A program made the translations under genes and the position numbers. This document shows positions 1-32,281 of a DNA stretch of 41,866 nt, one piece after another. The stretch is from a virus, in the IMG/VR virus record IMGVR_UViG_3300028388_002806, positions 1-41,866 of that record; one strand, 5' to 3'. The notes below the pieces were generated by a model, which searched no databases, was not told the origin of the DNA, and saw only the letters and a list, made by a program, of their open reading frames with translations. Positions within the stretch are counted from its first letter, which is position 1, and each line of letters begins with the position of its first letter.

Positions 1-1
1 T

Positions 2-439
2 GTTTATTATATCGCTGGTAACCATGATGAGTTTATACGTCCTTTTTTTCGATATGACTTCCAATTTGGTCGGTGTCAGATCTTGGATTCTTTCGACTAC
101 ATTGGCGTTTCCGGCAAGCGTTATTACGTTACTCACGGGGACTACTTTGACCTAACAATGAAGATCCCAACACCGGTGATCAACTTCTGTGCTCACATCT
201 GGGATTACATTCCACACAAAGAAGAAAACAATTCGTTTACAGATAGGATGTATAAAGTTCTTGGTACTGAACGAGTGATCGCAAAGTATCTAAAGGCTAA
301 GAAGTATGACAGTTGTATCACAGGTCATACTCACTCTCCTAAGATCAAAGACACGTATATGAACTGTGGCGACTGGGTAACAAACTGCTCAGCATTGGTA
401 GAACATGTTGATGGAACCTGGGAATTGATCTATAAATAA
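2..439 (+). CDS. Calcineurin-like metallophosphoesterase (LpxH/COG2908-like), 5' partial
   Basis: The frame is open from the window edge, so the N-terminus is missing. Visible metal-binding motifs are GNHDE (codons from about position 20), a central HGDYFD and a C-terminal GHTHSP, followed by a GDWV-NCSALVE stretch. This order is typical of calcineurin-like phosphoesterases and resembles the UDP-2,3-diacylglucosamine diphosphatase-like branch (COG2908). Such enzymes hydrolyse phosphomonoester, phosphodiester or pyrophosphate bonds using two metal ions. The substrate is not predictable here: nucleic acid ends, lipid A precursors or nucleotides are all possible. The stop codon overlaps a TATAAATA late-promoter-like octamer and the next gene begins four bases on. 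The fold call is firm; the substrate is open. Confidence 0.85.
   Translation, partial: VYYIAGNHDEFIRPFFRYDFQFGRCQILDSFDYIGVSGKRYYVTHGDYFDLTMKIPTPVINFCAHIWDYIPHKEENNSFTDRMYKVLGTERVIAKYLKAKKYDSCITGHTHSPKIKDTYMNCGDWVTNCSALVEHVDGTWELIYK
431..438 (+). promoter_or_regulatory. T4-type late promoter octamer TATAAATA
   Basis: This is an exact match to the T4 late promoter -10 octamer. It overlaps the stop codon of the phosphoesterase gene. Transcription would start about six bases downstream, almost on the ATG at 443, which makes the in-frame ATG at 458 the more comfortable start for a message made here. The octamer is seen directly; its use is inferred. Confidence 0.55.
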
Positions 440-442
440 AAC

Positions 443-1735
443 ATGGGAATTGAAAAAATGCAAGAAGCAGTATCTAAACTAGGGTATACGAAGTTTAAAC
501 AACAAACTCGTAACACTCTACTTGTTTATGTTCCAAAAAGTGAAAGAGATATTACATTGGATGAATTGGCTGAAAAAATGAATGGTGTCCGGGACAAACG
601 ACCTGAGACTATGAGAAAAATTTCTTCAGCTGGTGCAGTATTTTTCCCTGACGGTCCTTACAAGGATATGTTTCTTGGTGTAAAACCTGATGCATCTGCT
701 TCACTGACTACAGATGAGCAGGAAACATTGGCTGGCATTTTTATTGCTACAAAGCAAGCTAAGCCTGATACAAATTTTTCTTACACAGACTTAGAAAGCG
801 TTGGTGATACGAACACAAATTCGAGATTTAAAATATCTCAGCTATATGAGAAGGCTGGTAAAGGATGGATTAATAGTTCAATTGTAATTGCTGAAACTAT
901 TAGTCCTTTTTTAGAAGGAAAATATAAAGTTCAACAAAGATCTGGCAGCCCCTTTGTCACAAACATTAGCAATGCTGCTCAGAAACTTATCAGAGAATCT
1001 GGTCACACTATGGGTCTCGACAAGTGGAACCCTGCTGACATTTGGTTGGTGAAAACTAATCTGTTAACAACTAATTTTGGTCAGTTTAAAAATATAATGG
1101 AACTCAATCAATTTTTGTTAGAAAAGTTTAACAATAAAGAGATTATTGGTGTTTCACTTAAGCAGGTAGGCAAGACTGCCAAAGTACAAGTATTTAACGA
1201 TGGACCTCAAGAACAAGTTGAATTTGAAGGTTTTGATGTCGGAAAGACGGGTTTCGTAAAAGCATTAAATGGAACTCTTTACTGGGGTGGCGGATCAATG
1301 ATTATCCGTAACTTTGGTCGTCCTGAAAATGTCAGCGGTGAGATTAATGGTAAGTTTGCTCAAGGTGGTAAGGTTGGTCACGGTCCTTTGCTCAATATCA
1401 TGAAGCAAGTAGTTCCGGGATTTTCAACTACACCACACCAACAAATTTCTTCTATGTACAATAGCACTCCTGATAAACTTTACAGACATTTGTATTCTCA
1501 AATGAAATCACTTGACACCCGAGTTAGTCCATCGTATACTGTAGAGGAATTTAAAGCTGATGTAGAAGCTAAGGACAATACCTTGAATTACTTGATCTCG
1601 AAATATCAAGTATCTGATATTATGCAAGCAGTTAAAAAAATGAATAAAACACAAAAGAATAAAATGATCAGAGCTTTTATCGGATACGCATCTTCATCAA
1701 CAGAAATAAGTAGTATTTTTTACAAAGTATCATGA
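443..1735 (+). CDS. Conserved phage protein with PD-(D/E)XK-like core
   Basis: This 430-residue protein has no confident family name. About residues 195-205 read KWNPADIWLVK and about 45 residues later comes GVSLKQVGKTAK. An acidic PxD motif followed by a beta-strand ending in SxK is the spacing seen in PD-(D/E)XK nucleases, so a nuclease is possible but unproven. A glycine-rich GTLYWGGGSM stretch follows near residue 280, and the C-terminus is lysine-rich. An alternative start is the ATG at 458, which better suits the late promoter at 431-438. It shares a 4-base ATGA overlap with the ligase-like gene downstream, so the two are probably translated together. Confidence 0.7.
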   Translation: MGIEKMQEAVSKLGYTKFKQQTRNTLLVYVPKSERDITLDELAEKMNGVRDKRPETMRKISSAGAVFFPDGPYKDMFLGVKPDASASLTTDEQETLAGIFIATKQAKPDTNFSYTDLESVGDTNTNSRFKISQLYEKAGKGWINSSIVIAETISPFLEGKYKVQQRSGSPFVTNISNAAQKLIRESGHTMGLDKWNPADIWLVKTNLLTTNFGQFKNIMELNQFLLEKFNNKEIIGVSLKQVGKTAKVQVFNDGPQEQVEFEGFDVGKTGFVKALNGTLYWGGGSMIIRNFGRPENVSGEINGKFAQGGKVGHGPLLNIMKQVVPGFSTTPHQQISSMYNSTPDKLYRHLYSQMKSLDTRVSPSYTVEEFKADVEAKDNTLNYLISKYQVSDIMQAVKKMNKTQKNKMIRAFIGYASSSTEISSIFYKVS

Positions 1736-2253
1736 TCGAGCTTACAGAACAGAAAAACACACACATGGAACATATTGAAGACATGATCTTCAATGACGGA
1801 GTTGACGGAGCTCGTCTAGCTATCAACAGTCTTCGTAACTTAAGAGACATGCTTGCTGGCAAGTCTGATAGCAAAGTCAACGCAACTGTCAAATGGGATG
1901 GAGCTCCAGCGATCTTTGCTGGTATCGATCCAGCAGATGGTCAGTTCTTTGTAGCAAAGAAAGGTTTGTTTAATGTCAATCCGAAACTGTATAAAACTCA
2001 AAGTGATATTGATAAGGATCTATCTGGTGAGCTTGCTGCTAAATTTACGGTTGCGCTTAGGGAATTTGCTAAACTCGGTATCAAAAAAGGTGTATATCAA
2101 GGCGATCTTCTTTTTACCAGTGGTGATCTATCTGTTGTTACAATCGATGGTGAAAAGCATTATTCATTTCAGCCAAACACGATCGTCTACACCGTCCCCG
2201 TACGTTCAAGCCTTGGAGCGCAACTGGCAAAAGCTAAAATAGGAATTTCCTAA
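1732..2253 (+). CDS. N-terminal part of split DUF6267-like, ligase-like protein
   Basis: The product of 173 residues opens with a MEHIEDMIFNDGVDGAR region typical, as I recall it, of the phage DUF6267 family. It then has VKWDGAPAIFAG, which matches the KxDG adenylation motif I of ATP-dependent ligases, and GVYQGDLLF, which could be the motif III strand. It ends abruptly just after AKAKIGIS, where relatives would be expected to continue. The remainder of the family signature is in the next frame, starting at 2255. I read these as two halves of one gene broken by a frameshift with loss of some sequence. Either a natural split or an assembly error could explain this. Confidence 0.72.
   Translation: MIELTEQKNTHMEHIEDMIFNDGVDGARLAINSLRNLRDMLAGKSDSKVNATVKWDGAPAIFAGIDPADGQFFVAKKGLFNVNPKLYKTQSDIDKDLSGELAAKFTVALREFAKLGIKKGVYQGDLLFTSGDLSVVTIDGEKHYSFQPNTIVYTVPVRSSLGAQLAKAKIGIS
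2240..2252. repeat. Short inverted repeat at the gene break
   Basis: TAGGAA and TTCCTA flank one central T. The repeat spans the stop codon of the 1732-2253 frame and sits exactly at the junction between the two halves of the ligase-like gene. Such a short palindrome can promote slippage or deletion, but it may be coincidence. The TAGGAA arm could also serve as the ribosome binding site for the TTG start at 2255. Confidence 0.45.
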
Positions 2254-2254
2254 G

Positions 2255-2878
2255 TTGAAAAAAGCCTCCACTATCTTTATGGACGATGCAACTTACCGTG
2301 ACGTATCTGGCAATGCTAAGTTCACAGAAGCAGAAACTGATCAAGTCACTGAAATACTTTCTCAAGCTGGTAAGATCTTTAGAAGTATCAGAGGTGATTC
2401 TTTGAGAACTATTCGAGACAACAAAGATCTAAAAGAAAAGATCAAGACGTACAACAATACATACGTACGCCGTGGGGTTCCATTTCCTAATGTTCAACAG
2501 CATGTATCTGGTTTATATCGATACATTGATGAATGGTATCAAAAGGAAATTGATAAAAAGAAAACTCCAGCTGCAAAAGCTAAATGGCAAAAGCAAAGAG
2601 ATGATGTAATAAAAACTGTGTTTGCTAATTCAAGAGATCTCAAGTTTATCTTTATGCTTATGAATAAGTTGATTGAAGCCAAACAAATGATCATCAACAA
2701 AATGAACAAAGCAAATTCTATTGGTACGTTCTTACGTTATTCAAATGGCCTCAAAGCAACAACACCAGAAGGTTTCGTAGCAATTGATCGAGATGGTAAC
2801 TCAGTAAAGCTAGTTGACCGTCTTGAGTTCTCTCGTGCTAACTTTTCTCCAGATGTTCTCAAAGGCTGGCAGAAGTAA
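2255..2878 (+). CDS. C-terminal part of split DUF6267-like, ligase-like protein
   Basis: The product of 207 residues begins at a TTG and quickly enters DDATYRDVSG, a stretch I associate with the middle of DUF6267-like proteins. The central part is helical and lysine-rich. The end carries TPEGFVAIDRDG followed by SVKLVDRLEFSRANF; these resemble ligase motif IV (EGxV) and motif V (KxK-like). With motif I on the upstream frame, a complete ligase-like nucleotidyltransferase core can be assembled across both pieces. Whether this half is translated alone is unclear, because the TTG has only a modest upstream purine run. The gene ends just before a TATAAATA late promoter. Confidence 0.7.
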   Translation: MKKASTIFMDDATYRDVSGNAKFTEAETDQVTEILSQAGKIFRSIRGDSLRTIRDNKDLKEKIKTYNNTYVRRGVPFPNVQQHVSGLYRYIDEWYQKEIDKKKTPAAKAKWQKQRDDVIKTVFANSRDLKFIFMLMNKLIEAKQMIINKMNKANSIGTFLRYSNGLKATTPEGFVAIDRDGNSVKLVDRLEFSRANFSPDVLKGWQK

Positions 2879-2880
2879 TT

Positions 2881-2888
2881 TATAAATA
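2881..2888 (+). promoter_or_regulatory. T4-type late promoter octamer TATAAATA
   Basis: An exact TATAAATA lies in a 52-base gap, 43 bases ahead of the start of the 1059-residue gene at 2931. The spacing allows a leader of about 37 bases ending in a GGGAAACCTGGG purine-rich region before the ATG. This is the best placed late promoter in the window. Confidence 0.7.
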
Positions 2889-2930
2889 CTTAAAATTACA
2901 TTAACCAGTTAGCGCTACGGGAAACCTGGG

Positions 2931-5900
2931 ATGAAAGCTGTTTTCACATTCGGAAGAATGAACCCGCCTACGATTGGCCATCAAAAACTTGTCAAGAAGT
3001 TAGTATCTGTTGCAAAAGCAAATAGAGCTAAGCCATTTCTTTACCTGTCTCAAACACAGAACTCTAAGAAAGATCCTTTATCTTACAGTGATAAGATTCG
3101 GTTTGCTAAAAAATCTTTTCCAGAAGTAGAAGCGGTCAACACCTCTGCTCGTACAATCATAGAAGTCCTTAAAGAATTAGAAAAGAAAGGATTCACAGAT
3201 CTTACTTTAGTAGTTGGATCTGACCGTGTCAGAGAGTTTCAAACTCTTATCAACAAGTACAACGGCAAAGAGTATAACTTTGATTCTATTAATGTAGTTT
3301 CAGCTGGTGCTAGAGATCCTGATGCTGAAGGTGTGGAAGGCATGTCTGCATCTAAGTTAAGACAGCTTGCAGTATCAGGTTTGGAAGATCAGTTTAAGAC
3401 CGGTCTTCCTGAAAAACTATCAGATACAGATAAGAAAAAGATATACAATCTAGTCAGAAAAGGATTGAACGTGTCAGAAGAATTAGAAGAAAAAGTATTG
3501 ACTCTTCAACAGAGAATGAAGAAAGCAAGAACTATGAAACGTCTTGCTCCAAGATTTGCTCGTCTTCGTAAAATTAAAGCAAAAAGAATGGCGGATCCCA
3601 AAAGATTATTGCAAAGGGCCCGCAAACAAGCGATTAACATAATGAGAAAGAGAATGGCTGGTGAACGAGGTGGGCAATATGCTAACCTTTCTCCTGCTGC
3701 TAAAATTTCGATTGATCAACTTATAGATAAAAAGAGACCTGTCATTGACAAATTGGCTAAAAGATTGCTTCCTAAAGTTAGAAAGTCTGAAGTCGAGAGA
3801 CTTAAAAAAGCCAGAACTCCAAAGAATGAGGCTACTGAAGTTCCACAAGATCAAGATGTAAAACAAAGAGCAGGTTCACAGCCAGCAAAGTATTACAAAG
3901 GTCTTGCCAAGAGCACCAAGAAAGCTCGTGACACACACTTTGACAAGTATGAAAAGAAGCCAGACGACGATCCTTCAGCATACAAGCCAGCTCCTGGTGA
4001 TAAACGTGCTAAGACTAAGCCTTCTGTTCATACAAAGAAATACAAGCAGATGTTTGGTGAGGGGATGCCTGATCAAACAGATGACGTTCAAGATATCGTA
4101 CCAGGAATGATGACAGTGTCTAGAATCTCCAGCTCTTACAAAAAGAAGTTAAATGCAGAGTTTGAAAAGCTCGATGAAATTTCATATGCTTCTAGAACAA
4201 AAGAAAGACACGCTGCAGAAAGAGAAAGATTAAGAGATACTCATCGCAGAGAAAAAGAACAAATGAAGCAACGTCATGCTCGAGCTGTTGATAGAGCTCA
4301 AGTACGTGATGTTCGTTCTGAAGAATATTTCGAAGAAGGTGTTAATGATCCATCTATCTTCAAAGCAGTATTTCTTGCTGGTGGTCCAGGATCAGGTAAA
4401 TCGTTTATTATTGGACAGACTGCATTGATACCATTGGGTTTCAAATTGATCAATTCTGATCCAGCTTTTGAAAGAGCATTGGAAAAAGCTGGCTTGGATA
4501 AAGGAAAGCCAGAGGATATTTACTCTCCACAAGGTCAGGCTGCAAGAGGTCGTGCTAAAGCTCTTACTAGCAAGCAAATGAAGTTGGCTATTGATGGACG
4601 ATTGGGCTTAGTTATTGATGGCACAGGTAAAGATGCTTCAAAGATAAAAACTCAAGCCAATAAGTTAAAGAAACTTGGTTATGAAGTTGCGATGATATTT
4701 GTAAACACTGATCTGGAGACAGCACAGGCTCGTAACATGAAGCGCGATAGAACTTTGCCAGCAGATGAAGTTGAATCAATGTGGAACGAAGTGCAATCAA
4801 ACCTTGGTACATTCCAGAGCATGTTTGGTAAAAATATGTTCATAATTGACAACTCCGAAGATTCTGATTATGCTGGACAGTCGAGAAAAGTTTATAATAA
4901 GATCAAGACGTGGGCTGCTACTGAACCACGGATGCCACAAGCCAAGGCTTGGATCAATGCTCGTAAGAGTGTAAATGAAGAGTTTGAATCTTTAATGATT
5001 AACGAATCTTTTGAAGAGCAATTAAGACAACAAAAAGGTCGTTCTTCCATCGTACCTAGAGACAATTATACGCTAGAAGAAAAGTCTATTGCTGGTCTTA
5101 AGAAAAAGTCTGAAAAGTCTGGTGTTCCATACTCTATCTTGAAGAAAGTATATGATAGAGGGATGGCTGCTTGGAAAACTGGACACAGACCTGGTACTAC
5201 ACCACAACAATGGGCTTTTGCTAGAGTTAATAGTTTCTTAACAGGTGGCAAGACAAGAACAACAGCTGATAAGGACTTGTGGGCAAAAGCAAGTGCTGCT
5301 AAGAAATCAAAGAAAGAATCAATGAGAGTTGGACCTTACATGTCCAAGGTCTCAGAAGAAGTTCAGTCTCTTGATGAATCTTTCCAGATAGCTTTCGAAA
5401 CTGGTGCTGGGATGGGTGAAACCCATTTTGCTAAAGATCTTGGTATCCAGTTTGAAAGAGGATATCAAGACCACCCATCAATTACAGAAGACTGGTTTTC
5501 TAAGTTGATGAATAAGTATCTTCTTAAGCCAAGAACGTATCAGACTGCTAAGCAGATTCTTAGACAAGTACTTGATCGTAAAAAGAAAGAAGGTCAGTTA
5601 AAGCATTCAATTGAATACTATGCTCAACGGATTGCACAGAATTTTAAAGGTGTGGATGCTAGAGAGCTGGCAAAAATGGTTACAGAAGAACATGGTGCAG
5701 GAGAAGAGGGTACTGATGAGCTCGTCAAGAAGTACGTCAAGGACACGCCGCACATGGAGATCCAGCGTGAGGAGGAAGACTGGGAAGAGTTCGAAGCTAT
5801 TTGCGAAGACTGCATGGTCGATCTTCCCTTGGTCGAATCAGAGTACGAAGGAAAAAAAGTAACTCTCAATGATCCTATCCGTAGTTCGAAAGGACCAAAG

Positions 5901-6110
5901 AAGTTTCATGTATTTGTTAAGAACGATAAAGGCAATGTAGTCAAGGTAAACTTCGGTGATCCTAACCTGTCGATCAAGAGAGACGATCCTGATAGAAGAA
6001 GAAGTTTCAGAGCAAGACATAACTGTGACAATCCAGGTCCTAAATGGAAGCCTCGTTATTGGTCTTGTAGAATGTGGACAAAAGGTAAAAAAGTAAGCGA
6101 TTTAGATTAA
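2931..6110 (+). CDS. Multidomain protein: nucleotidyltransferase, P-loop kinase, DUF5824-like, Cys-containing tail
   Basis: A 1059-residue mosaic. Residues 1-180 form an HxGH nucleotidyltransferase domain (FGRMNPPTIGHQ near the start, SASKLRQ near 145), the NMN/cytidylyltransferase-type fold. About 190-460 is highly basic and looks disordered. A Walker A GGPGSGKS at 484-491 begins a zeta-toxin/AAA_33-type kinase with INSDPAFE just after it. About 722-785 contains VYDRGMAAWKTGHRPGTTPQ, a DUF5824-like phage domain. The last 90 residues (FGDPN, RRSFRARHNCDNPG, YWSCRMW) are a C-terminal module that I recall from other large phage proteins. The late promoter at 2881 and structural neighbours suggest a protein packaged in or needed for the virion, possibly injected. 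Bases around 5700-5850 are visibly richer in G+C than their surroundings. Confidence 0.82.
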   Translation: MKAVFTFGRMNPPTIGHQKLVKKLVSVAKANRAKPFLYLSQTQNSKKDPLSYSDKIRFAKKSFPEVEAVNTSARTIIEVLKELEKKGFTDLTLVVGSDRVREFQTLINKYNGKEYNFDSINVVSAGARDPDAEGVEGMSASKLRQLAVSGLEDQFKTGLPEKLSDTDKKKIYNLVRKGLNVSEELEEKVLTLQQRMKKARTMKRLAPRFARLRKIKAKRMADPKRLLQRARKQAINIMRKRMAGERGGQYANLSPAAKISIDQLIDKKRPVIDKLAKRLLPKVRKSEVERLKKARTPKNEATEVPQDQDVKQRAGSQPAKYYKGLAKSTKKARDTHFDKYEKKPDDDPSAYKPAPGDKRAKTKPSVHTKKYKQMFGEGMPDQTDDVQDIVPGMMTVSRISSSYKKKLNAEFEKLDEISYASRTKERHAAERERLRDTHRREKEQMKQRHARAVDRAQVRDVRSEEYFEEGVNDPSIFKAVFLAGGPGSGKSFIIGQTALIPLGFKLINSDPAFERALEKAGLDKGKPEDIYSPQGQAARGRAKALTSKQMKLAIDGRLGLVIDGTGKDASKIKTQANKLKKLGYEVAMIFVNTDLETAQARNMKRDRTLPADEVESMWNEVQSNLGTFQSMFGKNMFIIDNSEDSDYAGQSRKVYNKIKTWAATEPRMPQAKAWINARKSVNEEFESLMINESFEEQLRQQKGRSSIVPRDNYTLEEKSIAGLKKKSEKSGVPYSILKKVYDRGMAAWKTGHRPGTTPQQWAFARVNSFLTGGKTRTTADKDLWAKASAAKKSKKESMRVGPYMSKVSEEVQSLDESFQIAFETGAGMGETHFAKDLGIQFERGYQDHPSITEDWFSKLMNKYLLKPRTYQTAKQILRQVLDRKKKEGQLKHSIEYYAQRIAQNFKGVDARELAKMVTEEHGAGEEGTDELVKKYVKDTPHMEIQREEEDWEEFEAICEDCMVDLPLVESEYEGKKVTLNDPIRSSKGPKKFHVFVKNDKGNVVKVNFGDPNLSIKRDDPDRRRSFRARHNCDNPGPKWKPRYWSCRMWTKGKKVSDLD

Positions 6111-7006
6111 TGAAAATAGGTTTGATTAATAGTACAAGCAGCCAGATTTATACTGATGCTTGGAATGGTTTTGCTAGATTTGGAACTCCTCTGTATTTTG
6201 AAGACAGACAATTGGATCCTAAGTTAGCTGAATGTGATTTATATGTGTTAAATGGTAATAACTATGAAGACAGGCCTGCTAAGATGTTCGCTTACAAAAG
6301 TGGTAAGCCAATAATTCATGTAACAGGATGTTTGTTTGAAGTTAAAAATCCAACAAAATACGTAAGAGTTAACGTAAATGGATTTGTAAACAATATGGCT
6401 ACTTTACCAGATGCCAATTATGATAGATGGGATCAAATAAAAAAGTTTTTTAAGTTTAAAGATATATTTAAAAAGCGAGAAGGTGAGGGTATTGTTTTTG
6501 CGCTCAATGCAATTACTTCTCCCGCACAATTCGAAAACTTAGAGGATTGGTTGTACAACAATGTAGAGAAGGTTGCAAAGGAAACAGATCAACCAATTTA
6601 TATTAGACAACACAGAAAACAAAAAAAACCGTATGGTAAAAAATATAGACAGATGATTGATGATTTTAAAGTTCATCAGATATTAGACAGCAAGCATGCA
6701 GATGTTCCAAAAAACTTTGCTGCTACGGTTACGTATACAACAACATATAGTGTTAAAAGTTTAATGTATGGAACGCCAACAATTTGTACTCATCCTGGAA
6801 ATTTTGTGTACGATATTACAAAAAACGAACCGACTTTAGACAACTTAAGTTGGTATCCTGATGAAGATAGTTTGACATACCATTATGCTAGATTGGCAAA
6901 CATGTTATGGTCTGTAGAAGAAATTAACAGTGGAAAGTGTTGGGAAACATTGAGTAGATATCTACAAAGTAATCCTCAACAAAATTATAATTGGATAGGA
7001 GTTTAG
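6110..7006 (+). CDS. GT-B-type glycosyltransferase, capsule-biosynthesis-like (paralogue 1)
   Basis: A 298-residue protein whose start overlaps the previous stop by one base. Its C-terminal half has a donor-site-like pattern: TVTYTTTYSVKSLMYGTPTICT followed by HPGNFVYDI, then MLWSVEEINSGKCWETL at the end. The same layout recurs in the products of 24331-25275 and 26849-27748, so the three are paralogues. The pattern resembles capsule polysaccharide (KpsS/KpsC-like) transferases, which add sugars to surface glycans. The gene is very A+T-rich compared with the structural genes around it, suggesting acquisition. It is paired with a GT8-like gene, as is the 24331 copy. The acceptor is unknown; virion proteins are a possibility given its location. 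Confidence 0.7.
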   Translation: MKIGLINSTSSQIYTDAWNGFARFGTPLYFEDRQLDPKLAECDLYVLNGNNYEDRPAKMFAYKSGKPIIHVTGCLFEVKNPTKYVRVNVNGFVNNMATLPDANYDRWDQIKKFFKFKDIFKKREGEGIVFALNAITSPAQFENLEDWLYNNVEKVAKETDQPIYIRQHRKQKKPYGKKYRQMIDDFKVHQILDSKHADVPKNFAATVTYTTTYSVKSLMYGTPTICTHPGNFVYDITKNEPTLDNLSWYPDEDSLTYHYARLANMLWSVEEINSGKCWETLSRYLQSNPQQNYNWIGV

Positions 7007-7008
7007 TT

Positions 7009-7710
7009 ATGGAACCAGTAAACATTTACGTTGGATGGGATAGTAAAGAACCAGAAGCGTACGAAGTATGTAAGTACAGTATTGAAAAATATTCTTCTAT
7101 TCCAGTTAAAGTACATCCGCTTAAAATTAATGCATTGAGAAAGGATAGGTTGTATTGGAGAGAAGAGGATATTGGATCTACAGAATTTACAATTTCAAGA
7201 TTCCTAGTTCCCCATCTTAACCATTACAAAGGACCAGCGTTATTTTGTGACTGTGACTTTTTATTTTTAACTGATATCAAAGAATTGTTCGATCAATTTG
7301 ATAATAAAAAAGCTATTCAGGTGGTCAAGCATGATTACAACCCTCCTGAAAAGACGAAATTCTTAAATAATGTACAACATCAATATCCTAGAAAGAACTG
7401 GTCAAGTTTTGTATTATGGAATTGTGATCATCCTGCTAATGCAGAAATGTCACTATTCAATGTAAATAATGCATTACCAAGTACGTTGCATCAATTTAAA
7501 TTTTTGAAAGATGAAATGATTGGAGAGTTAAACCACGAGTGGAATTGGCTCGAGGGTCACTACAAGGAGCCCAAAGACGGTTCTCCAAAAGCGATCCACT
7601 ACACTCGAGGTGGTCCATGGTTTGAAGAATGCAAAGATGTAGAATACGCAGAACTTTGGAACGAACACTATAAAGAACTTACGGAGAACCAAAATGTCAA
7701 GATCGCTTGA
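7009..7710 (+). CDS. GT8-like glycosyltransferase (paralogue 1)
   Basis: The ATG at 7009 is chosen over an upstream in-frame TTG because TAGGAGT lies six bases before it. The 233-residue product begins NIYVGWDSKEPEAYEV and carries a FCDCDFLFL segment near residues 78-86, a DxD-type metal/nucleotide-sugar site of GT-A enzymes. Near the C-terminus there is IHYTRGGPWF, comparable to the conserved HxxxxxKPW-type end of GT8 proteins. The product of 25272-26015 has the same order of motifs. The final 160 bases are more G+C-rich than the rest of the gene, as if a recombination border lay near 7545. The 3' end overlaps the next gene by 17 bases. Confidence 0.75.
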   Translation: MEPVNIYVGWDSKEPEAYEVCKYSIEKYSSIPVKVHPLKINALRKDRLYWREEDIGSTEFTISRFLVPHLNHYKGPALFCDCDFLFLTDIKELFDQFDNKKAIQVVKHDYNPPEKTKFLNNVQHQYPRKNWSSFVLWNCDHPANAEMSLFNVNNALPSTLHQFKFLKDEMIGELNHEWNWLEGHYKEPKDGSPKAIHYTRGGPWFEECKDVEYAELWNEHYKELTENQNVKIA

Positions 7711-9130
7711 AAACTCAATCAGAGAAATAATGGCATCAGCCTATATCACTGAAGATGAAACTAAGGACAGAGGTGAGTTAATGATAGGAAACTATCAAAC
7801 TCGTCACTTCGATATGTGTCCATCAGCTACAAAGCTGTATAAAAATATCGAGAACAAAGTTGATGATATGGACCTAGCCGTCCGTTCAGCTAAGTTACAA
7901 GACAACCTTTTCCGTCTTGAAAAAGAAGCTATTGATGATAACGAAGCTGATCAGGAAGTGGTCAATAGTGCTCAGAATCTAGCTGATCAAATAATGAAGA
8001 TGGCTAAGATGATGGGCATGGAAAAAGAACATGACTATATCTCGATGCACGTCGACAAGATCAAAGAAATTGCTGATTCTGATGACGATGATGATATGGA
8101 TGAACAAAAAGACAAGCCCCCATTTACACCAGATCCCAAAAGATCAGGTCCTCGCAAAGACAGATTTGGAAACGTAATCAAAACAAAAAATCTTCCAAAG
8201 CATCTGGCCAAGAAAGGCATGAGAGGCGAAGCTGTTGATCCTACAGATACCGGTGGTGAAGAAGAAATGAAGATGATGATGACTCAAGTCAATCAAATTC
8301 GTCATTACGTCGACGGCATCGAGAAGATGATCAAAGCTGATGGTGATATGGAAGAATGGGTACAGAACAAGCTCACTAAAGCTACAGATTACCTCAAATC
8401 AGTATATGGTTATAAGACTGGAAAAAGTGGAATGACAGAAGAAGCTAATCCTAAACTTCTCGCAGCTCTTAAGAAGAAGCTAAAGGATGAAGGCGGTGCA
8501 GCTGGTTTTGAGCCACTGAAAGATATTGCAAAGTCTATGGATGTAGATTTGACTCCAGCAATGCTGAAAGGTATGGATGGAATTAAGCAACACAGAGATG
8601 GAGACTACATCTTAGAGAATGTTGAGCTTGAAGAGGGCTTTGATGCAAAGAAAGCAACTATGGCTGCTAAAGAGATCAGAGACTACGCAAGAAAGAGCGG
8701 TGGGATTGATAAAAAAGACTTTATGAAAGCTGCCGATAACATTGAGGCAATTGCCAAAGCTAATTTGATGACAATGAGTACTGCTTTAGATAAATTTAAC
8801 AAACACTACAGACCTTTGGATACAAGTCCCCGTGAATACATTTTTAGTGTTCTAAGAAAGCATGGTATGATTGCTGAAGGAAAGACTCAACTTACTGAAC
8901 CTGCTGATTCTGTAGCTCAACAACAAGCTGCTGGTGCTGCATTATCTGCTAAACGTGGAGAAACTGATCCTTCTAAGCTCCAAGGTGCGTCAAAGCAAAT
9001 GTATGATACAATGACAACAAAAGAACTCGATAAGATTGCAAGTACTAAACATGATGATCTTCCAAAGAGAGTTCAGAAAGAGTCATATGTACAAAGACTT
9101 ATTAAAGAGCGGTTGTCTAAAAAATCATAA
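7694..9130 (+). CDS. Virion-associated conserved phage protein
   Basis: A 478-residue, highly charged and mostly helical protein. The N-terminal part (ELMIGNYQTRHFDMCPSA near residue 28) and the middle stretch (QVNQIRHYVDGIEKMIK, then AEDYL-like ATDYLKSVYGY) are patterns I recognise from large proteins in the structural modules of marine myoviruses, but I cannot assign a function. An acidic run DSDDDDDMDE lies near residue 133. Several methionine-rich helices follow. No catalytic motif is evident. It sits between the glycosyltransferase pair and other structural-type genes. A scaffold, core or injected protein would fit; that is inference from context. Confidence 0.65.
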   Translation: MSRSLENSIREIMASAYITEDETKDRGELMIGNYQTRHFDMCPSATKLYKNIENKVDDMDLAVRSAKLQDNLFRLEKEAIDDNEADQEVVNSAQNLADQIMKMAKMMGMEKEHDYISMHVDKIKEIADSDDDDDMDEQKDKPPFTPDPKRSGPRKDRFGNVIKTKNLPKHLAKKGMRGEAVDPTDTGGEEEMKMMMTQVNQIRHYVDGIEKMIKADGDMEEWVQNKLTKATDYLKSVYGYKTGKSGMTEEANPKLLAALKKKLKDEGGAAGFEPLKDIAKSMDVDLTPAMLKGMDGIKQHRDGDYILENVELEEGFDAKKATMAAKEIRDYARKSGGIDKKDFMKAADNIEAIAKANLMTMSTALDKFNKHYRPLDTSPREYIFSVLRKHGMIAEGKTQLTEPADSVAQQQAAGAALSAKRGETDPSKLQGASKQMYDTMTTKELDKIASTKHDDLPKRVQKESYVQRLIKERLSKKS

Positions 9131-13489: not shown

Positions 13490-13767
13490 TCGAAAGACTG
13501 TTTGACGATACTTTATGGATATATACTGCTATACTAGGATCATTAGCAGGTGCAGCGTTCCTTGCTTATTTCAAGGAAACAAAAGCAGGTCTTTGGTGTT
13601 ATGCAAAGCTAGACCAAACTCTAGACTTCTTAGTAGCTAGATATGGGTGGACTTGGTTAGAACAACCTACCGATGCGTGGAGAAAAAAGTATCCTCACGT
13701 AACTAAAAAAATAGACGAACTCGAAAACAGAATTGCTATATTGGAGGCAAAGAATGCAACTAAGTAA
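13486..13767 (+). CDS. Small membrane protein with C-terminal coiled coil (lysis region)
   Basis: A 93-residue protein with one clear membrane segment at about residues 10-28 (YTAILGSLAGAAFLAYF). A Trp-rich amphipathic stretch follows, and the last 25 residues (KKIDELENRIAILEAK) form a heptad-like coiled coil. The start overlaps the lipase stop by four bases (ATGA), and the 3' end overlaps the endolysin start by 14. Position between lipase and endolysin suggests a holin, holin partner or lysis regulator. Sequence alone does not settle which. Confidence 0.65.
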   Translation: MIERLFDDTLWIYTAILGSLAGAAFLAYFKETKAGLWCYAKLDQTLDFLVARYGWTWLEQPTDAWRKKYPHVTKKIDELENRIAILEAKNATK

Positions 13768-14218
13768 AAACTTTTCAATGGCCGAATTTACAAAGTCACA
13801 GACTGCAGAGCGTAAAGGTATTGACAACACTCCACAGGGAGAGCATCTCGAAGCAGCTAAGGCTTTGTTTGAAAATGTTGTTCAACCGGTCCGTGACCAG
13901 TTTGGACCAACTGTAATCAACTCTGGTTATCGTTCACCTGAGCTTAACGAAGCAGTTGGTGGCTCTTCTCGTTCACAGCACTGTAAAGGTGAAGCGGCTG
14001 ACATCGAAGTACCAGGAACTCCTAATGCAGAGCTTGCAGAGTGGATTCGTGATAACTTAGAGTTCGATCAGTTGATCCTTGAGTTCTATACTCCTGGTAT
14101 TCCAGATTCAGGTTGGGTTCATGTATCTTACAAAGCAGATGGATCAAACCGTAGATCTATCCTCACTGCTACACGTGTAGACGGTAAGACACAATACTCT
14201 GAGGGGATCAACGCATAA
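13754..14218 (+). CDS. Endolysin, M15 family peptidase
   Basis: A 154-residue peptidase of the M15 (D-Ala-D-Ala / L-Ala-D-Glu carboxypeptidase-like) family. The ATG at 13754 is chosen because GGAGG lies about seven bases upstream. Zinc ligands are visible: His76 and Asp83 in SQHCKGEAADIE, and a later His123 in GWVHVSY. INSGYRSPELN is the typical preceding loop. It cleaves peptidoglycan cross-bridge peptides. There is no signal peptide, so it needs a holin to reach the wall. The stop shares one base with the following small membrane gene. Confidence 0.9.
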   Translation: MQLSKNFSMAEFTKSQTAERKGIDNTPQGEHLEAAKALFENVVQPVRDQFGPTVINSGYRSPELNEAVGGSSRSQHCKGEAADIEVPGTPNAELAEWIRDNLEFDQLILEFYTPGIPDSGWVHVSYKADGSNRRSILTATRVDGKTQYSEGINA

Positions 14219-14319
14219 TGTTTATGACATTAGGTTTTATTGTTGGATTTGCCGCTGGCTGGATTATTCGTTGGAAGCTAGACGGTATTATTGATTTTGC
14301 AAAAAGGTTTAAGAAGTAA
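14218..14319 (+). CDS. 33-residue membrane protein in lysis region
   Basis: ATG at 14218 overlaps the endolysin stop by one base, and the TAA shares its last base with the ATG of the i-spanin gene, so the frame is bracketed by two stop-start overlaps. The product, starting MFMTLGFIVGFAAGWIIRW, has a single hydrophobic segment followed by a basic tail (FAKRFKK). This is the look of a small pinholin-like or lysis accessory peptide. Function is inferred only from place and shape. Confidence 0.6.
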   Translation: MFMTLGFIVGFAAGWIIRWKLDGIIDFAKRFKK

Positions 14320-14822
14320 TGGGAATGAAGTTGGCGGCCATTATGGCCGTCTTGATGTTTGCTATGGGTGGTGCGTTCTATTGGTACTACAATGATACTC
14401 AAGAACGCATCGGTGTATTGAGAGAGAATAATGCTAAACTTGAAACTGCAATTGCAATCAGTGAGGAGAGTATCAAAACTCTCCAAGCTGATATGGAAAG
14501 GTTTGCTGAATTGAATAAGCAGCTGACTGGACAATTACAGAAAGCAGAAGCATATGGAGATGATTTAAGATCTAAGCTCAGAGAGCATGATTTGACATCA
14601 TTGGCGATTACAAAGCCAAAATTATTAGAAGGTAAGATGAATGGTGCGACAGCAAATTTGTGGCGTGATATCGAAAAGGACACTGGTGGTGATGGGGATG
14701 CTCCTCTTCCTCAGTGGTTGCAGCCTGTTCCCGAGTCCGGAACCGGAAGTGCAGGTAGTGACGAAAATCGAGAAGACCCAAGTACCAGTAGTGGAAAGGC
14801 CGAAGCCAGTCCAGCTAGTTGA
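14319..14822 (+). CDS. i-spanin (Rz / T4 PseT.3-like)
   Basis: A 167-residue inner-membrane spanin. The N-terminal hydrophobic segment (about residues 5-22) is an uncleaved membrane anchor. A long periplasmic coiled coil (ENNAKLETAIAISEESIKTL and onward) follows. The stretch AITKPKLLEGKMNGATANLWRDIE resembles the conserved region of T4-type Rz proteins. The last 45 residues are Gly/Pro/Ser-rich because this region is also read in another frame as the o-spanin. It joins the outer-membrane partner to fuse the two membranes at the end of lysis. Confidence 0.85.
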   Translation: MGMKLAAIMAVLMFAMGGAFYWYYNDTQERIGVLRENNAKLETAIAISEESIKTLQADMERFAELNKQLTGQLQKAEAYGDDLRSKLREHDLTSLAITKPKLLEGKMNGATANLWRDIEKDTGGDGDAPLPQWLQPVPESGTGSAGSDENREDPSTSSGKAEASPAS

Positions 14823-15066
14823 TACTAAGATATACGTAGTAAATCAAGAAAACCTTGAACAGTTTATTGTTGAGTTCAAGGAACAACACGGTGAACTAGC
14901 ATTTGTTGGTTTATCGATCAGAGACTATGAAAACTTGGCATTGAATATTGCTGATATTAGACGTTATGTCAATCAGCAAAAAGAAATTATTTTATATTAT
15001 GAACAAGCGTTAACTCCTGAGGCTAACAAGGATGATGTCACAGTTAGCGAAACCGAGTTAAAATAA
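14641..15066 (+). CDS. o-spanin lipoprotein (Rz1 / T4 PseT.2-like)
   Basis: A 141-residue lipoprotein starting inside the i-spanin gene in the +1 frame and running past its end, with 182 bases shared. The signal peptide ends in a LFLSGC lipobox, so Cys near residue 27 should be lipidated and anchored in the outer membrane. A Pro-rich PVVERPKPVQLVD linker follows, then a long charged helix. The ATG at 14641 has AAGGT about seven bases upstream; later ATGs inside the signal sequence are also possible. The overlapping Rz/Rz1 layout is the classical sign of two-component spanins. Confidence 0.87.
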   Translation: MVRQQICGVISKRTLVVMGMLLFLSGCSLFPSPEPEVQVVTKIEKTQVPVVERPKPVQLVDTKIYVVNQENLEQFIVEFKEQHGELAFVGLSIRDYENLALNIADIRRYVNQQKEIILYYEQALTPEANKDDVTVSETELK

Positions 15067-21706: not shown

Positions 21707-22107
21707 TGTGGTACTATAATAATGAACCTTATGAAGACACCCCAGAAGAATATCAGGGGTTTGTCTATCAGATAACAGACTTGGTGACAGGAAAGAAATA
21801 TATTGGAAAAAAGTTTTTTTGGAAACCAAAAACTCTTCCAGTCACAAAAACAAGAAAAAGACGTGTCAAGACCCGCACTGAGTCGGACTGGAGATCATAT
21901 TATGGTTCCAGCAAAGAAGTTAAAGAACTTGTTGAATCTCAAGGACAAGACAAGTTCAAAAGAGAAATCTTAAGACTGTGTAAGACTAAAGGTGAATGTT
22001 CTTATTATGAAGCAAAATATCAATTTGATTTTGAAGTATTGTTTAGAGACGATTACTACAACGAGTTAATTAGTTGTAAGATTCATTCTCGCCATGTAAA
22101 AAAATGA
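21706..22107 (+). CDS. GIY-YIG-type endonuclease, Seg-like
   Basis: A 133-residue protein with GFVYQITDLVTGKKYIGKK near residue 18, matching the GIY and YIG halves of the GIY-YIG core. An ESDWRSYYGSSKE segment and YYEAKYQF near the C-terminus supply the Arg/Glu positions of the active site. Related small proteins occur in many T4-like phages and are usually listed as Seg-type homing or free-standing nucleases. It lies beside nrdB, a frequent location for homing nucleases in T4-like phages. The stop overlaps the kinase gene start by four bases. Confidence 0.75.
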   Translation: MWYYNNEPYEDTPEEYQGFVYQITDLVTGKKYIGKKFFWKPKTLPVTKTRKRRVKTRTESDWRSYYGSSKEVKELVESQGQDKFKREILRLCKTKGECSYYEAKYQFDFEVLFRDDYYNELISCKIHSRHVKK

Positions 22108-22865
22108 TTCATATAAAACATCTCAAAGGCCATTCTGGGTGTCAAGTAAGCCTTGTTCAACTCGAGGACAAGTATGCTGTGTTGAAAACTGGATCATATA
22201 AACTCCAGGATGCAGCTGCGTTACAGAACAGATTGAAAAACAATCGATTCAATATTCCTGAAATATATGAGTACTACAATGATGGGTACTTGATGGAGTA
22301 TATTGATGGCGATGACATGTATACCTTCATAGAAAAAGCGTCTTGGGATGATATTGAATCGTTGTTTACATTTTTAAAAAGTACTTTACAATACTTCAAA
22401 TCATGTACGTATCAGCATCAGTATAATTTTTATAACGATTATAATAGTAAAATAAACAACAATACATATTTTAGTTTACAACAAAAGCAAGTACTGTTGG
22501 ACAATCTCCCGCCGTGCTTAGATCGTTCAATTATTCATGGTGATTTAACTCTTGACAATATCATCCACAATGATGGACAATTCTATCTTATTGATCCCAA
22601 TCCAACTGAATTTGATAACTGGATGTTTGATGGATGTAAGTTAAGACAAGACTTAGATGGATACTGGTTTCTTAGACATAAAAACAATACAACAAGTCAT
22701 AAGATTGTATGTAATTATCTTTCCGATAAACTAAAAGCTGAGTTTCCGGAACTCGCTAACAATTATGTGTATTCGTTTATGTTATCAAGGGTCCATCCGT
22801 ATTGCAAAGACAAAGTGTCTTTAAATTTGATTGAAAGAGAGTTGGAGAGAGTATGGCAGTTGTAA
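22104..22865 (+). CDS. APH/choline-kinase-like phosphotransferase
   Basis: A 253-residue kinase-fold protein. The catalytic loop IIHGDLTLDNII near residue 142 and the metal-binding LIDPNPTEFDN after it match the aminoglycoside/choline kinase group. The N-terminal lobe has YAVLKTGSY with the ATP-site lysine and LMEYIDGDDMYTF with the hinge. In surface-glycan loci such enzymes phosphorylate a small alcohol or sugar. The gene overlaps by 13 bases with a nucleotidyltransferase, forming a kinase/nucleotidyltransferase pair of the LicA/LicC kind. It opens the glycan island. Antibiotic resistance is not implied. Confidence 0.8.
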   Translation: MIHIKHLKGHSGCQVSLVQLEDKYAVLKTGSYKLQDAAALQNRLKNNRFNIPEIYEYYNDGYLMEYIDGDDMYTFIEKASWDDIESLFTFLKSTLQYFKSCTYQHQYNFYNDYNSKINNNTYFSLQQKQVLLDNLPPCLDRSIIHGDLTLDNIIHNDGQFYLIDPNPTEFDNWMFDGCKLRQDLDGYWFLRHKNNTTSHKIVCNYLSDKLKAEFPELANNYVYSFMLSRVHPYCKDKVSLNLIERELERVWQL

Positions 22866-23554
22866 TACCGTGTGCTGGACAATCTAGTAGATTTCCAAAC
22901 ATGTTACCAAAATATTTACTGGAAATGCCTGATCAACGGTTGATGTTTGAACATGCAGTAGAAAAATGGGCTGATTGTATTGATCAAAAGATTATTTTTG
23001 TAGTATTGAAAGATCATGACATCAAGTATAACAGCAGTGAGATTATCAAGTCTAAGATATCCAATGCACAAATTGTATTAGTTGATCCAACAAAAGGACC
23101 TGCTGAAACTGTTTACAGAGCCTTAGAATTTGTTGATGAAAACGAATGTTTGTTTATTCAAGACGTAGACAGTCATTTTAACTTTGACAAGATTAACGAA
23201 GATGTTATCAACTTTGTATGTACTGTAGATTTGAGAGATCGGTTGGACACTACACGAGTAGCTGCTAAAAGTTTCGTCACTGTAAACGAGCAAGATATTG
23301 TTACGAACATAGTAGAAAAATCTGTTGTCAGTAATTTTATTATAGTAGGAGGATACTTTTTTTCGGCTGCTAAGATATTTAAATCTGCATACGAGTCTTT
23401 ACAATTACAAGAAGAATTATTTGTATCTCATGTAATCAAACAATCAATGCAAGATCATGTGTTTCACAAAGTAAATGTTACTGATTACATTGATGCGGGT
23501 ACAAAAGAAGATTGGGAAAAACTATATGAAACTAGCCGTAGTACTATCGGGTGA
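22853..23554 (+). CDS. NTP-transferase (sugar or alcohol-phosphate nucleotidyltransferase)
   Basis: A 233-residue enzyme of the nucleotidyltransferase GT-A-like fold. The N-terminal signature VVIPCAGQSSRFPNMLPKYL holds the nucleotide loop and the Lys of the PK motif. FIQDVDSHF is the DxD metal site. YIDAGTKEDWEKL near the end is the usual closing motif. It would activate a phosphorylated sugar or alcohol as an NDP or CDP derivative for transfer to glycan. The 13-base overlap with the upstream kinase suggests they act in sequence on one metabolite. Confidence 0.8.
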   Translation: MAVVIPCAGQSSRFPNMLPKYLLEMPDQRLMFEHAVEKWADCIDQKIIFVVLKDHDIKYNSSEIIKSKISNAQIVLVDPTKGPAETVYRALEFVDENECLFIQDVDSHFNFDKINEDVINFVCTVDLRDRLDTTRVAAKSFVTVNEQDIVTNIVEKSVVSNFIIVGGYFFSAAKIFKSAYESLQLQEELFVSHVIKQSMQDHVFHKVNVTDYIDAGTKEDWEKLYETSRSTIG

Positions 23555-24353
23555 AGTAAGACATCTTGACAGGTTACTCGAAACTCACAAATATTTGTCA
23601 AAAGATAATCAAGTCGATTACTATTGCACTGTGTGGGAAAGAGATCAAGATAAGTTAGATGTTGTCAATAAACTTAACCCCGTATCTATTCAAACCATTG
23701 AAGAGGACAATGAACTTCTTCTCTCAAGTATTGATGTAGAAAAGGAAATCATTAAGAAGTTTAAAAAGAATCCAATTTTTATGCTTCCGAGAATTGAATT
23801 GTTATCAAAGATAACGTACTTGAATATTCCAAAAGTCGAGGAGTATGACTTTATTCTGAGATCTAGATATGACATTGAATACTGTACAGAGATGCCTTTT
23901 CATTTAGCAAAGGAACAGCCAGTATTTCAAAAAGCATACGGTAACACGAGGTTACCTGGAAATGTACCAGATGGTTTTTTTCTGGCGACTCCTGAACATT
24001 CAAGGATTTTGTATAATTTTTATGAGTGGATTGTTGAGGATTGTGTTAAAGAACTTCCAGCAAACTTTGAATTTAATCCAGAAGCTACGTTTGGTCATTA
24101 TGTAAGGAATGTCTGTAATTTTAATCCTCAGATTGTAGATCAGTTAATTAAACCTCTTGGAAAGGGGATGGCTGCATCTAAAGTAGAGCGAAAGGTCAAT
24201 CGTGCAAAAAGATACTTATTTGATCTTGCCAAATACCACAAAGAGTTGTATGATAGTGTTGAATTCTTTGGACATCGAAAATATGGGATCGATCCTAAAG
24301 CATATAAAAATGAGTTGAGGGAATTTTTTAGTGAAAAAAATAGTATGGTTTAG
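23526..24353 (+). CDS. WavE-like / surface-glycan glycosyltransferase
   Basis: The ATG at 23526 is used because the protein then begins KLAVVLSGEVRHLDRLLE, the usual start of this family. The 275-residue product has VDYYCTVWERD early and YDFILRSRYDIEY in the middle, features of WavE-type and related lipopolysaccharide transferases. NTRLPGNVPDGFFLATPEH follows. Overlaps with both neighbours (29 and 23 bases) show coupled translation. The sequence is markedly A+T-rich. The reaction is inferred from family resemblance and neighbourhood. Confidence 0.65.
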   Translation: MKLAVVLSGEVRHLDRLLETHKYLSKDNQVDYYCTVWERDQDKLDVVNKLNPVSIQTIEEDNELLLSSIDVEKEIIKKFKKNPIFMLPRIELLSKITYLNIPKVEEYDFILRSRYDIEYCTEMPFHLAKEQPVFQKAYGNTRLPGNVPDGFFLATPEHSRILYNFYEWIVEDCVKELPANFEFNPEATFGHYVRNVCNFNPQIVDQLIKPLGKGMAASKVERKVNRAKRYLFDLAKYHKELYDSVEFFGHRKYGIDPKAYKNELREFFSEKNSMV

Positions 24354-25275
24354 TGAATGGAAGAAGATGTATAAGCATCCTTTCCCTTCACGCTATCCTT
24401 TTGTAGAACAACCGTTCGAACAAGCTGTATCTGAAAACGATGCTGATGCATATGTTCAGGTTAACCTTCGTCATCCTTATCATGTCAAGGAACCATTTCG
24501 CGAACCATTCTATAAGTTCATTGAGCAGTCTGGCAAGCCTAAAATTGTTTTCGAAACAGCAGTTTTTCGTCAAGATGATCCAAACAAAACAAAAGAAAAA
24601 TACATGAGGTTTTGTTGGAATAGCTATCTGTACAATGAAGGAGACTTTGGTCCCAGAGGTAATCCTGGTGACAGATTTCATAGACTTCAAGAAGAACAAC
24701 AAATTAAAATTGATCCATGGAAAAAGTATCGTGGTAAATACATTCTAGTATTCTTACAACATATTATTGACACTAGTTTGTTTAGGATGATTGAGAAGTA
24801 TGGATCTTTTTACAAATGGTTACATCACACAGTTAAATTAATCAGAGAGAACACTGATCTTCCTATTGTAATCAGACCTCATCCTAAACATGGAATGTAC
24901 ACACAGTTCTTTGAAGGTCATAGAATATCAGAAATCTTTAAGGAGTTTAACGATGTTAGGTGGTCAGAAAACATCGGACAAAGTAACCTTAGCGGAGGCG
25001 ACTTTCTTAAAGCTGATCTTCGCGATGCTCACGCTGCAGTTGGTTGGACTTCTAACGCTCTTACTGAGGCTGCGTGTGCAGGAGTGCCAGTCTATCCTAT
25101 GTCTGGCGGAGCTATGTGCACTCCTGTAGGATGCTTTGATTTTACTAAGATAGATAATAATGTAGAATGTGTCGATCGTAAGCAATGGTTATATGATTTA
25201 GCTTATTGTCAATGGACACGTGAAGAAGTATTGAATGGTACAGCATTTACACATATTATGAAGGACAAACAATGA
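24331..25275 (+). CDS. GT-B-type glycosyltransferase, capsule-biosynthesis-like (paralogue 2)
   Basis: A 314-residue protein starting at GTG, with its 5' end inside the upstream gene. PIVIRPHPKHG near residue 180 and AAVGWTSNALTEAACAGVPVY near 233 make up the donor-site pattern of KpsS/KpsC-like transferases. It closes with LAYCQWTREEVLNGTAFTHI. These features line up with the products of 6110-7006 and 26849-27748. It is followed with a four-base overlap by a GT8-like gene, the same order as at 6110-7710. Confidence 0.75.
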   Translation: MKKIVWFSEWKKMYKHPFPSRYPFVEQPFEQAVSENDADAYVQVNLRHPYHVKEPFREPFYKFIEQSGKPKIVFETAVFRQDDPNKTKEKYMRFCWNSYLYNEGDFGPRGNPGDRFHRLQEEQQIKIDPWKKYRGKYILVFLQHIIDTSLFRMIEKYGSFYKWLHHTVKLIRENTDLPIVIRPHPKHGMYTQFFEGHRISEIFKEFNDVRWSENIGQSNLSGGDFLKADLRDAHAAVGWTSNALTEAACAGVPVYPMSGGAMCTPVGCFDFTKIDNNVECVDRKQWLYDLAYCQWTREEVLNGTAFTHIMKDKQ

Positions 25276-26015: not shown

Positions 26016-26097
26016 TTGGTTTCTTGTAGCAATCAATCCATGGTATAGAGTGGAATACAATCCAGTCACTAGACAGACGCGACACGTTAAACGATGA
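25996..26097 (+). CDS. 33-residue small protein bridging the gap
   Basis: The frame starts at ATG 25996, overlaps the end of the GT8-like gene by 20 bases and ends in an ATGA overlap with the cytidylyltransferase start at 26094. The peptide is aromatic and basic (NWFLVAINPWYRVEYNP, then RQTRHVKR). It fills the only sizeable gap in the island. Coding is supported by the overlap at its end; function is unknown. Confidence 0.45.
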   Translation: MTSSDNNWFLVAINPWYRVEYNPVTRQTRHVKR

Positions 26098-28455: not shown

Positions 28456-28660
28456 ATCTAACAGAAGATCCGTAGTCAAGACATTCACGTGGCGGATGCT
28501 TGCTACGTTTACAACTTTTATTATTAGTTGGGCAATTACCGAAAACATTTACATGGGTCTAGGTATTGCATCAATAGAATTTTGGGCTAAGCTAATTTTA
28601 TACTATTTGCACGAGAGAGTTTGGAATAAAATTAAATGGGAAAAGAATGAGTCCAATTAA
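28448..28660 (+). CDS. DUF2061 membrane protein
   Basis: A 70-residue protein with two hydrophobic helices. The motifs RRSVVKTFTWRML, TFIISWAITENI and LILYYLHERVWNKI define DUF2061. The start is a TTG that overlaps the methyltransferase stop. As I know it, DUF2061 genes often sit beside sulfate-assimilation genes such as cysC in bacteria. Here the next gene, overlapping by 14 bases, is an APS-kinase-like protein, matching that association. The exact role is not established. Confidence 0.82.
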   Translation: MFESNRRSVVKTFTWRMLATFTTFIISWAITENIYMGLGIASIEFWAKLILYYLHERVWNKIKWEKNESN

Positions 28661-29438: not shown

Positions 29439-29444
29439 CAGAAT

Positions 29445-29521: not shown

Positions 29522-29535
29522 CTTAAGAGGAAGAT

Positions 29536-30779: not shown

Positions 30780-30803
30780 GTAGTTTTACTTTGGAGAAAT
30801 TTT

Positions 30804-32261: not shown

Positions 32262-32281
32262 AAGGGTTACTTAACTAAACT

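Follow-up and report, generated by a model that had tools for sequence, protein, structure and literature searches.

The DNA examined here is the whole of IMG/VR record IMGVR_UViG_3300028388_002806 (41,866 bases; the window), a fragment of a T4-like marine phage with relatives in the Kyanoviridae. Its first 6,110 bases hold a series of genes around a member of the DUF6267 family (Pfam PF19782). We suggest, at a probability of roughly 0.5, that this series contains a late, partly packaged gene block of the Kyanoviridae type and that its DUF6267 member, as a divergent covalent nucleotidyltransferase and likely a ligase, works with the nucleotidyltransferase (NT) domain encoded downstream of it. 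The nearest annotated relatives of the contig are Pelagibacter phage HTVC008M, the Methylophilales Melnitz phages, phage C48C1, and Synechococcus and Prochlorococcus cyanophages, mostly Kyanoviridae, and a megablast search of bases 1 to 8000 against phage records found no close nucleotide relative. Another contig, IMGVR_UViG_3300028388_004155 (locus L261), ends in a sequence identical to the first 29 codons of the window and is probably an adjoining piece of the same phage. The features of the region are as follows.

2-439, plus strand: calcineurin-like phosphoesterase (Metallophos, E = 7e-8), 3' part only, the 5' end being lost at the contig end
431-438, plus strand: late-promoter-like box TATAAATA, 12 nucleotides before the ATG at 443 and 27 nucleotides before the ATG at 458
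443-1735, plus strand: P1462, 430 residues, phrog_1462 family (E = 2e-34), with a PD-(D/E)XK-like pattern
1732-2253, plus strand: N-terminal part of DUF6267 (PF19782, E = 6e-55), with THMEHIED, motif I KWDGAP (1891-1908), FFVAKKG, and motif III QGD (2098-2106)
2245-2254, plus strand: deletion junction, out of frame, about 68 nucleotides relative to the nearest homologue (locus L001)
2255-2878, plus strand: C-terminal part of DUF6267 (PF19782, E = 3e-37), with the helical insert, motif IV EGFV (2768-2779), and motif V VKLVDR (2804-2821)
2881-2888, plus strand: late-promoter-like box TATAAATA, 50 nucleotides before the NT start at 2931, a normal placing
2931-6110, plus strand: 1059-residue multidomain protein with NMNAT-like HIGH nucleotidyltransferase, P-loop kinase, DUF5824, and DUF5754-like domains
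2934-3491, plus strand: NT, the HIGH nucleotidyltransferase domain (GRMNPPTIGH...GMSASKLR), NMNAT-like, orthologue of T4-GC190 (phrog_3041, E = 2e-87)
4320-4979, plus strand: P-loop kinase domain of the zeta toxin, T4 Pnk, and PSTK group; most kinase-bearing relatives encode it on its own
5073-5288, plus strand: DUF5824 domain, encoded in relatives on its own or as part of a fusion
5829-6077, plus strand: DUF5754-like domain, encoded in relatives on its own or as part of a fusion

DUF6267 and its broken copy in the window

DUF6267 is present in 461 phage records of the searched collection, mostly those of cyanophages. Among 257 unique intact full-length proteins, K58, D60, and G61 of motif I (KxDG) are invariant (100%), and together with P63, K81, D129, H179, T180, E373, G374, K386, and R390 they make up a set of positions conserved at 99 to 100%. 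The motifs run in the order KxDG, III (QGD), IIIa (VWHTxY), IV (EGxV), and V (VKxVDR), with III and V in variant forms, and both their arrangement and their character agree with motifs I, Ia, III, IIIa, IV, and V of the covalent nucleotidyltransferases. The AlphaFold model of an intact relative (predicted local distance difference test [pLDDT], 88; predicted template modeling score [pTM], 0.82) has a beta-rich core, in which the KWDG, QGD, VWHT, EGYV, and VK motifs lie on or next to beta strands, and a helical insert of about 130 residues, at positions 219-351, splits this core between VWHT and EGYV. Motifs and model suggest that DUF6267 probably belongs to the covalent nucleotidyltransferase superfamily; for the narrower proposal that it joins strands, the odds are about even.

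The gene in the window is a member of this family (cyanophage T4-GC71, PF19782, phrog_455) and has the same neighbors but, unlike other members, is split and lacks the VWHTxY segment. The ligase-like motifs named in the sequence-only reading of this DNA are present, KWDGAP at 1891-1908 and EGFV...VKLVDR at 2768-2821, but the single ligase-like product that it assigned to 1732-2878 is in fact two open reading frames (ORFs) in different frames, 1732-2253 and 2255-2878. Both halves match PF19782 and phrog_455, at DUF6267 profile positions 1-157 and 184-373, and the deletion of about 68 nucleotides at their junction removes about 25 residues, among them the invariant IGVVWHTxY segment (motif IIIa-like), and shifts the frame. 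Full-length relatives are always a single ORF of about 400 to 410 codons, the missing middle is present in all of them, and the window holds the sole split copy among 384 loci.

A programmed frameshift was considered and rejected: because about 25 conserved residues are gone, and not the frame alone, either the gene itself is broken or the contig is wrong at this point. Since the out-of-frame deletion runs across a motif, this copy is inactive as assembled. Assembly or sequencing error and genuine mutation are evenly matched as its cause. The sequence comes from one metagenome contig, the split copy is unique, and the block's other genes have intact reading frames, all of which favor an error, and nothing direct speaks against one.

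Gene order, late promoters, and virion proteins

P1462, DUF6267, and NT form a conserved unit, and the block is common to most T4-like phages of ocean bacteria. In 110 of 125 loci, NT is found downstream of DUF6267 at a distance of no more than 4 kb. P1462 stands ahead of DUF6267 in at least 32 of 118 loci, a lower bound because P1462 diverges fast. In S-PM2 the association is a covalent one, the protein S-PM2d138 carrying DUF6267 (residues 3-401) and NT (410-582) in one 591-residue chain, and the phrog_455 profile covers both. The block is positioned just after gp43-uvsX-gp41. In the records of S-B64, S-H35, and metaG-MbCM1, NT-type or DUF6267-type proteins are misnamed ribonucleotide reductase, an annotation error.

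Late promoters had been proposed at 431 and 2881. Boxes are present at both positions, and they are conserved before orthologous genes, although within the window itself their number (3 sites, against 2.3 expected) is at chance level. The box at 431 suits the internal ATG at 458 better, because it stands just 12 nucleotides from the ATG at 443. In non-redundant upstream regions of orthologues, compared with shuffles, TATAAATA was found mostly 28 to 53 nucleotides before the start: in 26 of 93 regions upstream of P1462 (1.1 in shuffles), 30 of 148 upstream of NT (1.6 in shuffles), and 5 of 20 upstream of the kinase (0.4 in shuffles). Enrichment upstream of DUF6267 was weak (12 of 219, against 2.5 in shuffles), as is expected for a co-transcribed middle gene.

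Published proteomes place NT orthologues in the virions of four cyanophages, namely S-SM1 (T4-GC190; Sullivan et al. 2010, PMC3037559), S-SZBM1 (SSZBM1_140; PMC9146016), S-SCSM1 (described as NMNAT; PMC9602691), and S-CREM2 (PMC10665884), and the P1462 homologue SSCSM1_90 is marked as a virion protein in the S-SCSM1 record. The authors of two of the four papers on NT warn that such proteins are possibly contaminants. S-CREM2 was also considered as a virion test for DUF6267; it is uninformative in this respect because its cytidylyltransferase sits after gp55 and no DUF6267 gene adjoins it.

Neighbors of DUF6267 and other genes of the window

The sequence-only reading had placed an HxGH nucleotidyltransferase and a P-loop kinase in one protein, and GRMNPPTIGH and GGPGSGKS do occur together in the ORF at 2931-6110. 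In 214 NT sequences, G16 and H17 of the TxGH motif are conserved at 100% and T14 at 98%, as are S139 and R144 of SASKxR at 100%, and by these motifs NT belongs to the HIGH nucleotidyltransferase superfamily. Domain and genomic place are the same as in T4-GC190, the cytidylyltransferase/NMNAT-like virion protein (PMC3037559), whereas the window protein gains the kinase, DUF5824, and DUF5754-like domains and extends to 1059 residues. DUF5824 (5073-5288), the DUF5754-like domain (5829-6077), and DUF3008 (8903-9073) seem to behave as movable modules, which in late or virion-type regions occur either as proteins of their own or fused to others; these small domains could be packaging tags.

The kinase is optional, being found in about 5 to 7% of loci, and most NT genes have none. 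In all five kinase fusions (the smallest of 426 residues) the nucleotidyltransferase is followed by the kinase, and DUF6267 is never the partner. The earlier description of the kinase as zeta-type stands insofar as the profile matches zeta toxin, but T4 Pnk (2e-5) and L-seryl-tRNA kinase are equally near, with adenylate kinases matched weakly, and the substrate is therefore not readable from sequence. The profile also weakly matches chains 4gp6 and 4gp7, labeled "Metallophosphoesterase," which we take to be the kinase domain of Clostridium thermocellum Pnkp.

P1462 had been put forward as having a possible PD-(D/E)XK core. Across 121 homologues, T90, E94, D199, S238-L239-K240, and K428 are conserved at 99 to 100%; the D and K of PD-(D/E)XK are present, and S replaces D/E. 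The conserved pattern E...D...SxK is plausible as a variant of that motif, and P1462 is a probable PD-(D/E)XK-type nuclease, but the fold is not backed by any database match: the very confident AlphaFold model (pLDDT, 95.7) had no PDB match in the fold search, the alignment members matched no nuclease family in a Pfam scan at E values up to 10, and a PDB profile search gave nothing useful. At loci L185 to L203, L208, L209, L241, and others, which have no DUF6267 nearby, the gene next after P1462 often encodes the DUF5754-like domain, which in the window forms the C-terminal part of the 1059-residue protein.

In the phosphoesterase, GNHDE and GHTH are both present, as noted earlier, in the 5'-truncated ORF at 2-439. 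An intact relative (locus L249) matched models of UDP-2,3-diacylglucosamine diphosphatase, below cut-off, and PDB entry 5k8k. Since both the best models and the PDB match are UDP-2,3-diacylglucosamine hydrolases, the protein does not appear to belong to the calcineurin subfamily of Pnkp. The match to PRK05340 has an E value of 2.5e-13 but reaches 49.8 bits, against a curated LpxH cut-off of 134 bits. By these comparisons the protein is an LpxH/COG2908-like relative and not a proven LpxH, in line with an initial caution about likeness to LpxH-type enzymes. The phosphoesterase lies upstream of DUF6267 at none of 118 loci in the unbiased set, which was found through DUF6267, and adjoins the block solely in some loci retrieved by searching for the phosphoesterase. 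It is a chance neighbor outside the conserved block. The four-gene order once thought worth seeking in other phages is thus kept for P1462, DUF6267, and NT but not for the phosphoesterase or for the optional kinase.

Elsewhere in the contig there are two further genes of the HIGH nucleotidyltransferase type, at 26094-26846 and 28647-29435, one of them heptose-adenylyltransferase-like and the other kinase-like with a cytidyltransferase match. Several glycosyltransferase-like genes lie at 6110-7710 and 22104-33056, around nrdA/nrdB and exonuclease genes, and may serve to modify the surface or the DNA. A lysis cassette at 13733-15066 consists of an endolysin gene and then a pair of Rz-like spanin genes (14319-14822 and 14641-15066) that overlap and are read in different frames.

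Possible functions of the block

We propose the following. (i) DUF6267 would load adenosine monophosphate (AMP) onto K58, the lysine of KWDG. (ii) It would then pass the AMP to a nucleic-acid 5' end, most likely sealing a strand. (iii) It would act with the NMNAT-like NT, its fusion partner in S-PM2. (iv) NT and, at least once, P1462 would travel in the virion and act at entry, e.g., in the restoration of nicotinamide adenine dinucleotide (NAD+), an arrangement that would share with packaged T4 Alt the idea of enzymes injected with the DNA. Ten of 11 DUF6267-bearing records searched lack PF01068, and PF09414 was found in none of the 11, while T4 has both. As most of the DUF6267 records searched are without a recognized ligase, DUF6267 could fill a ligase role.

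Several results weigh against this proposal. First, Foldseek searches of the DUF6267 model against PDB and BFVD gave no significant match outside its own family, so that the structural comparison by which membership of the ligase superfamily was to be judged places the protein neither within that superfamily nor clearly outside it. The insignificant tail of matches includes Trypanosoma brucei RNA editing ligase 1 (REL1) in PDB and RNA ligase A, two NAD+ DNA ligases, and a Pithovirus mRNA 5'-phosphatase in BFVD. Second, there was no significant sequence match between DUF6267 and any ligase, including in a Pfam scan of alignment members at E values up to 10, and a PDB profile search gave nothing useful. 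Profile-profile comparison with T4 gp30, Rnl1, and Rnl2 also gave no signal, a test without power because these true ligases do not find one another. Third, DUF6267 shares the motif order I, III, IIIa, IV, and V with ATP- and NAD+-dependent ligases and capping enzymes (T4 gp30, Rnl1, Rnl2, REL1, LigA) but differs from them in having D in motif III, where E is usual, K...R rather than KxK in motif V, and a helical insert that separates IIIa from IV; beyond motif V it has neither an OB-fold nor any other C-terminal ligase domain, and it shows no detectable homology to them. Fourth, NT is matched by NMNAT models below their cut-offs alone and has no PDB match. Fifth, in S-SCSM1 and S-CREM1 (loci L340 and L342), P1462 is followed directly by NT and DUF6267 is missing at the locus; DUF6267 is therefore not obligatory. 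Finally, the published virion proteome of S-SZBM1 (PMC9146016) includes NT but not the neighboring DUF6267 (SSZBM1_141). The description of the genes as a late or packaged set is supported by box conservation, by NT in published virions, and by one P1462, and not by DUF6267 in S-SZBM1.

A possible but less probable explanation is that the block supplies NAD+: the NMNAT-like domain and the kinase would act as in NadR, which combines NMNAT and ribosylnicotinamide kinase, making NAD+ from nicotinamide riboside or nicotinamide mononucleotide (NMN) at entry to counter its depletion, with DUF6267 loosely linked. The one-chain order of HIGH nucleotidyltransferase and then P-loop kinase is that of NadR in five of five fusions, TIGR01526 (nadR) is among the better matches of the nucleotidyltransferase (9e-7), NMNAT-like proteins have been found repeatedly in the virions of cyanophages (PMC10665884, PMC9602691), and a phage NadR is known (PMC9503650). 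The best fusion nevertheless scores 28.5 bits, far below the TIGR01526 cut-off of 341 bits, the kinase falls in the zeta/AAA_33/PSTK subgroup and not clearly in the NadR kinase family (AAA_28, E = 0.04), most NT genes lack a kinase, and the fusion of DUF6267 with NT is left unexplained.

Somewhat more doubtful is the view that DUF6267, as a covalent nucleotidyltransferase, adds a cap or label to an RNA 5' end, a tRNA, or a protein and does not join strands. Capping enzymes belong to the superfamily, the protein lacks any known strand-joining C-terminal domain beyond motif V, and the Pithovirus phosphatase is among the weak fold matches, but these also include NAD+ DNA ligases and RNA ligases, two of each. 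It is rather unlikely that DUF6267 lies outside the ligase superfamily altogether, the KWDG...EGxV...VK series being a coincidence in an unrelated fold. The confident model with no significant match outside the family would be consistent with this; all ligase-type catalytic positions, however, are invariant and in the correct order in the 257 proteins, and the large helical insert could by itself defeat Foldseek.

We consider it improbable that DUF6267 takes the place of T4 gp30 as the replicative DNA ligase that cyanophages seem to lack, with P1462 as a nuclease of fragment maturation. The position of the block just after gp43-uvsX-gp41 and the scarcity of PF01068 among the DUF6267 phages searched agree with such a role, as does the counting of gp30 as a non-cyanophage core protein by the authors of the Stenotrophomonas phage DLP6 study (PMC5349666). 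The late promoters before the block argue against routine sealing of Okazaki fragments, DLP6 carries a PF01068 gp30-like ligase alongside DUF6267, and P1462 was found in a virion. More speculative still, and very unlikely, is a self-recycling ligase among the late genes or in the virion, in which DUF6267 would use NAD+ as a ligase-type enzyme and its NMNAT-like neighbor or fusion partner would remake NAD+ from the NMN released; its only basis is the S-PM2 fusion, the constant adjacency of the two genes, and the insignificant fold matches to NAD+ DNA ligases.

The pathway first suggested for these genes, end healing and sealing as in bacterial Pnkp, in which the phosphoesterase would clear 3' phosphates, the kinase phosphorylate 5' ends, and DUF6267 seal, was not borne out and has very little left in its favor: candidate domains for all three activities lie side by side, and the kinase profile matches T4 Pnk and, weakly, 4gp6/4gp7, but the phosphatase is an unlinked, LpxH-like chance neighbor missing upstream of DUF6267 at 118 of 118 unbiased loci, the kinase is not always present and goes with NT rather than with DUF6267, and the ligase-like gene is broken in the window itself. 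What is shared with Pnkp is the broad P-loop kinase group, ligase-like motifs, and an adjoining calcineurin-fold protein; Pnkp is a single chain, whereas these ORFs are separate, and DUF6267 is fused to a kinase or phosphoesterase at 0 of 384 loci. With tRNA repair by T4 Pnk/Rnl1 the block has in common the idea of end repair, but it has no visible HAD-type phosphatase of the Pnk kind, and its promoters are of the late type.

The gene families and their cyanophage core status were already known; the functional prediction for DUF6267 appears to be new, as no proposed function was found in the literature searched, where the name DUF6267 occurs in no paper. NT is a member of the cyanophage core and is found in virions, and DUF6267 adjoins it in abundant marine viruses. 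Now that catalytic residues and a fusion partner can be named, the predicted enzymatic role opens this long-unassigned family to direct testing, and DUF6267, if a ligase, may explain the absence of a recognizable DNA or RNA ligase in most of the phages tested.

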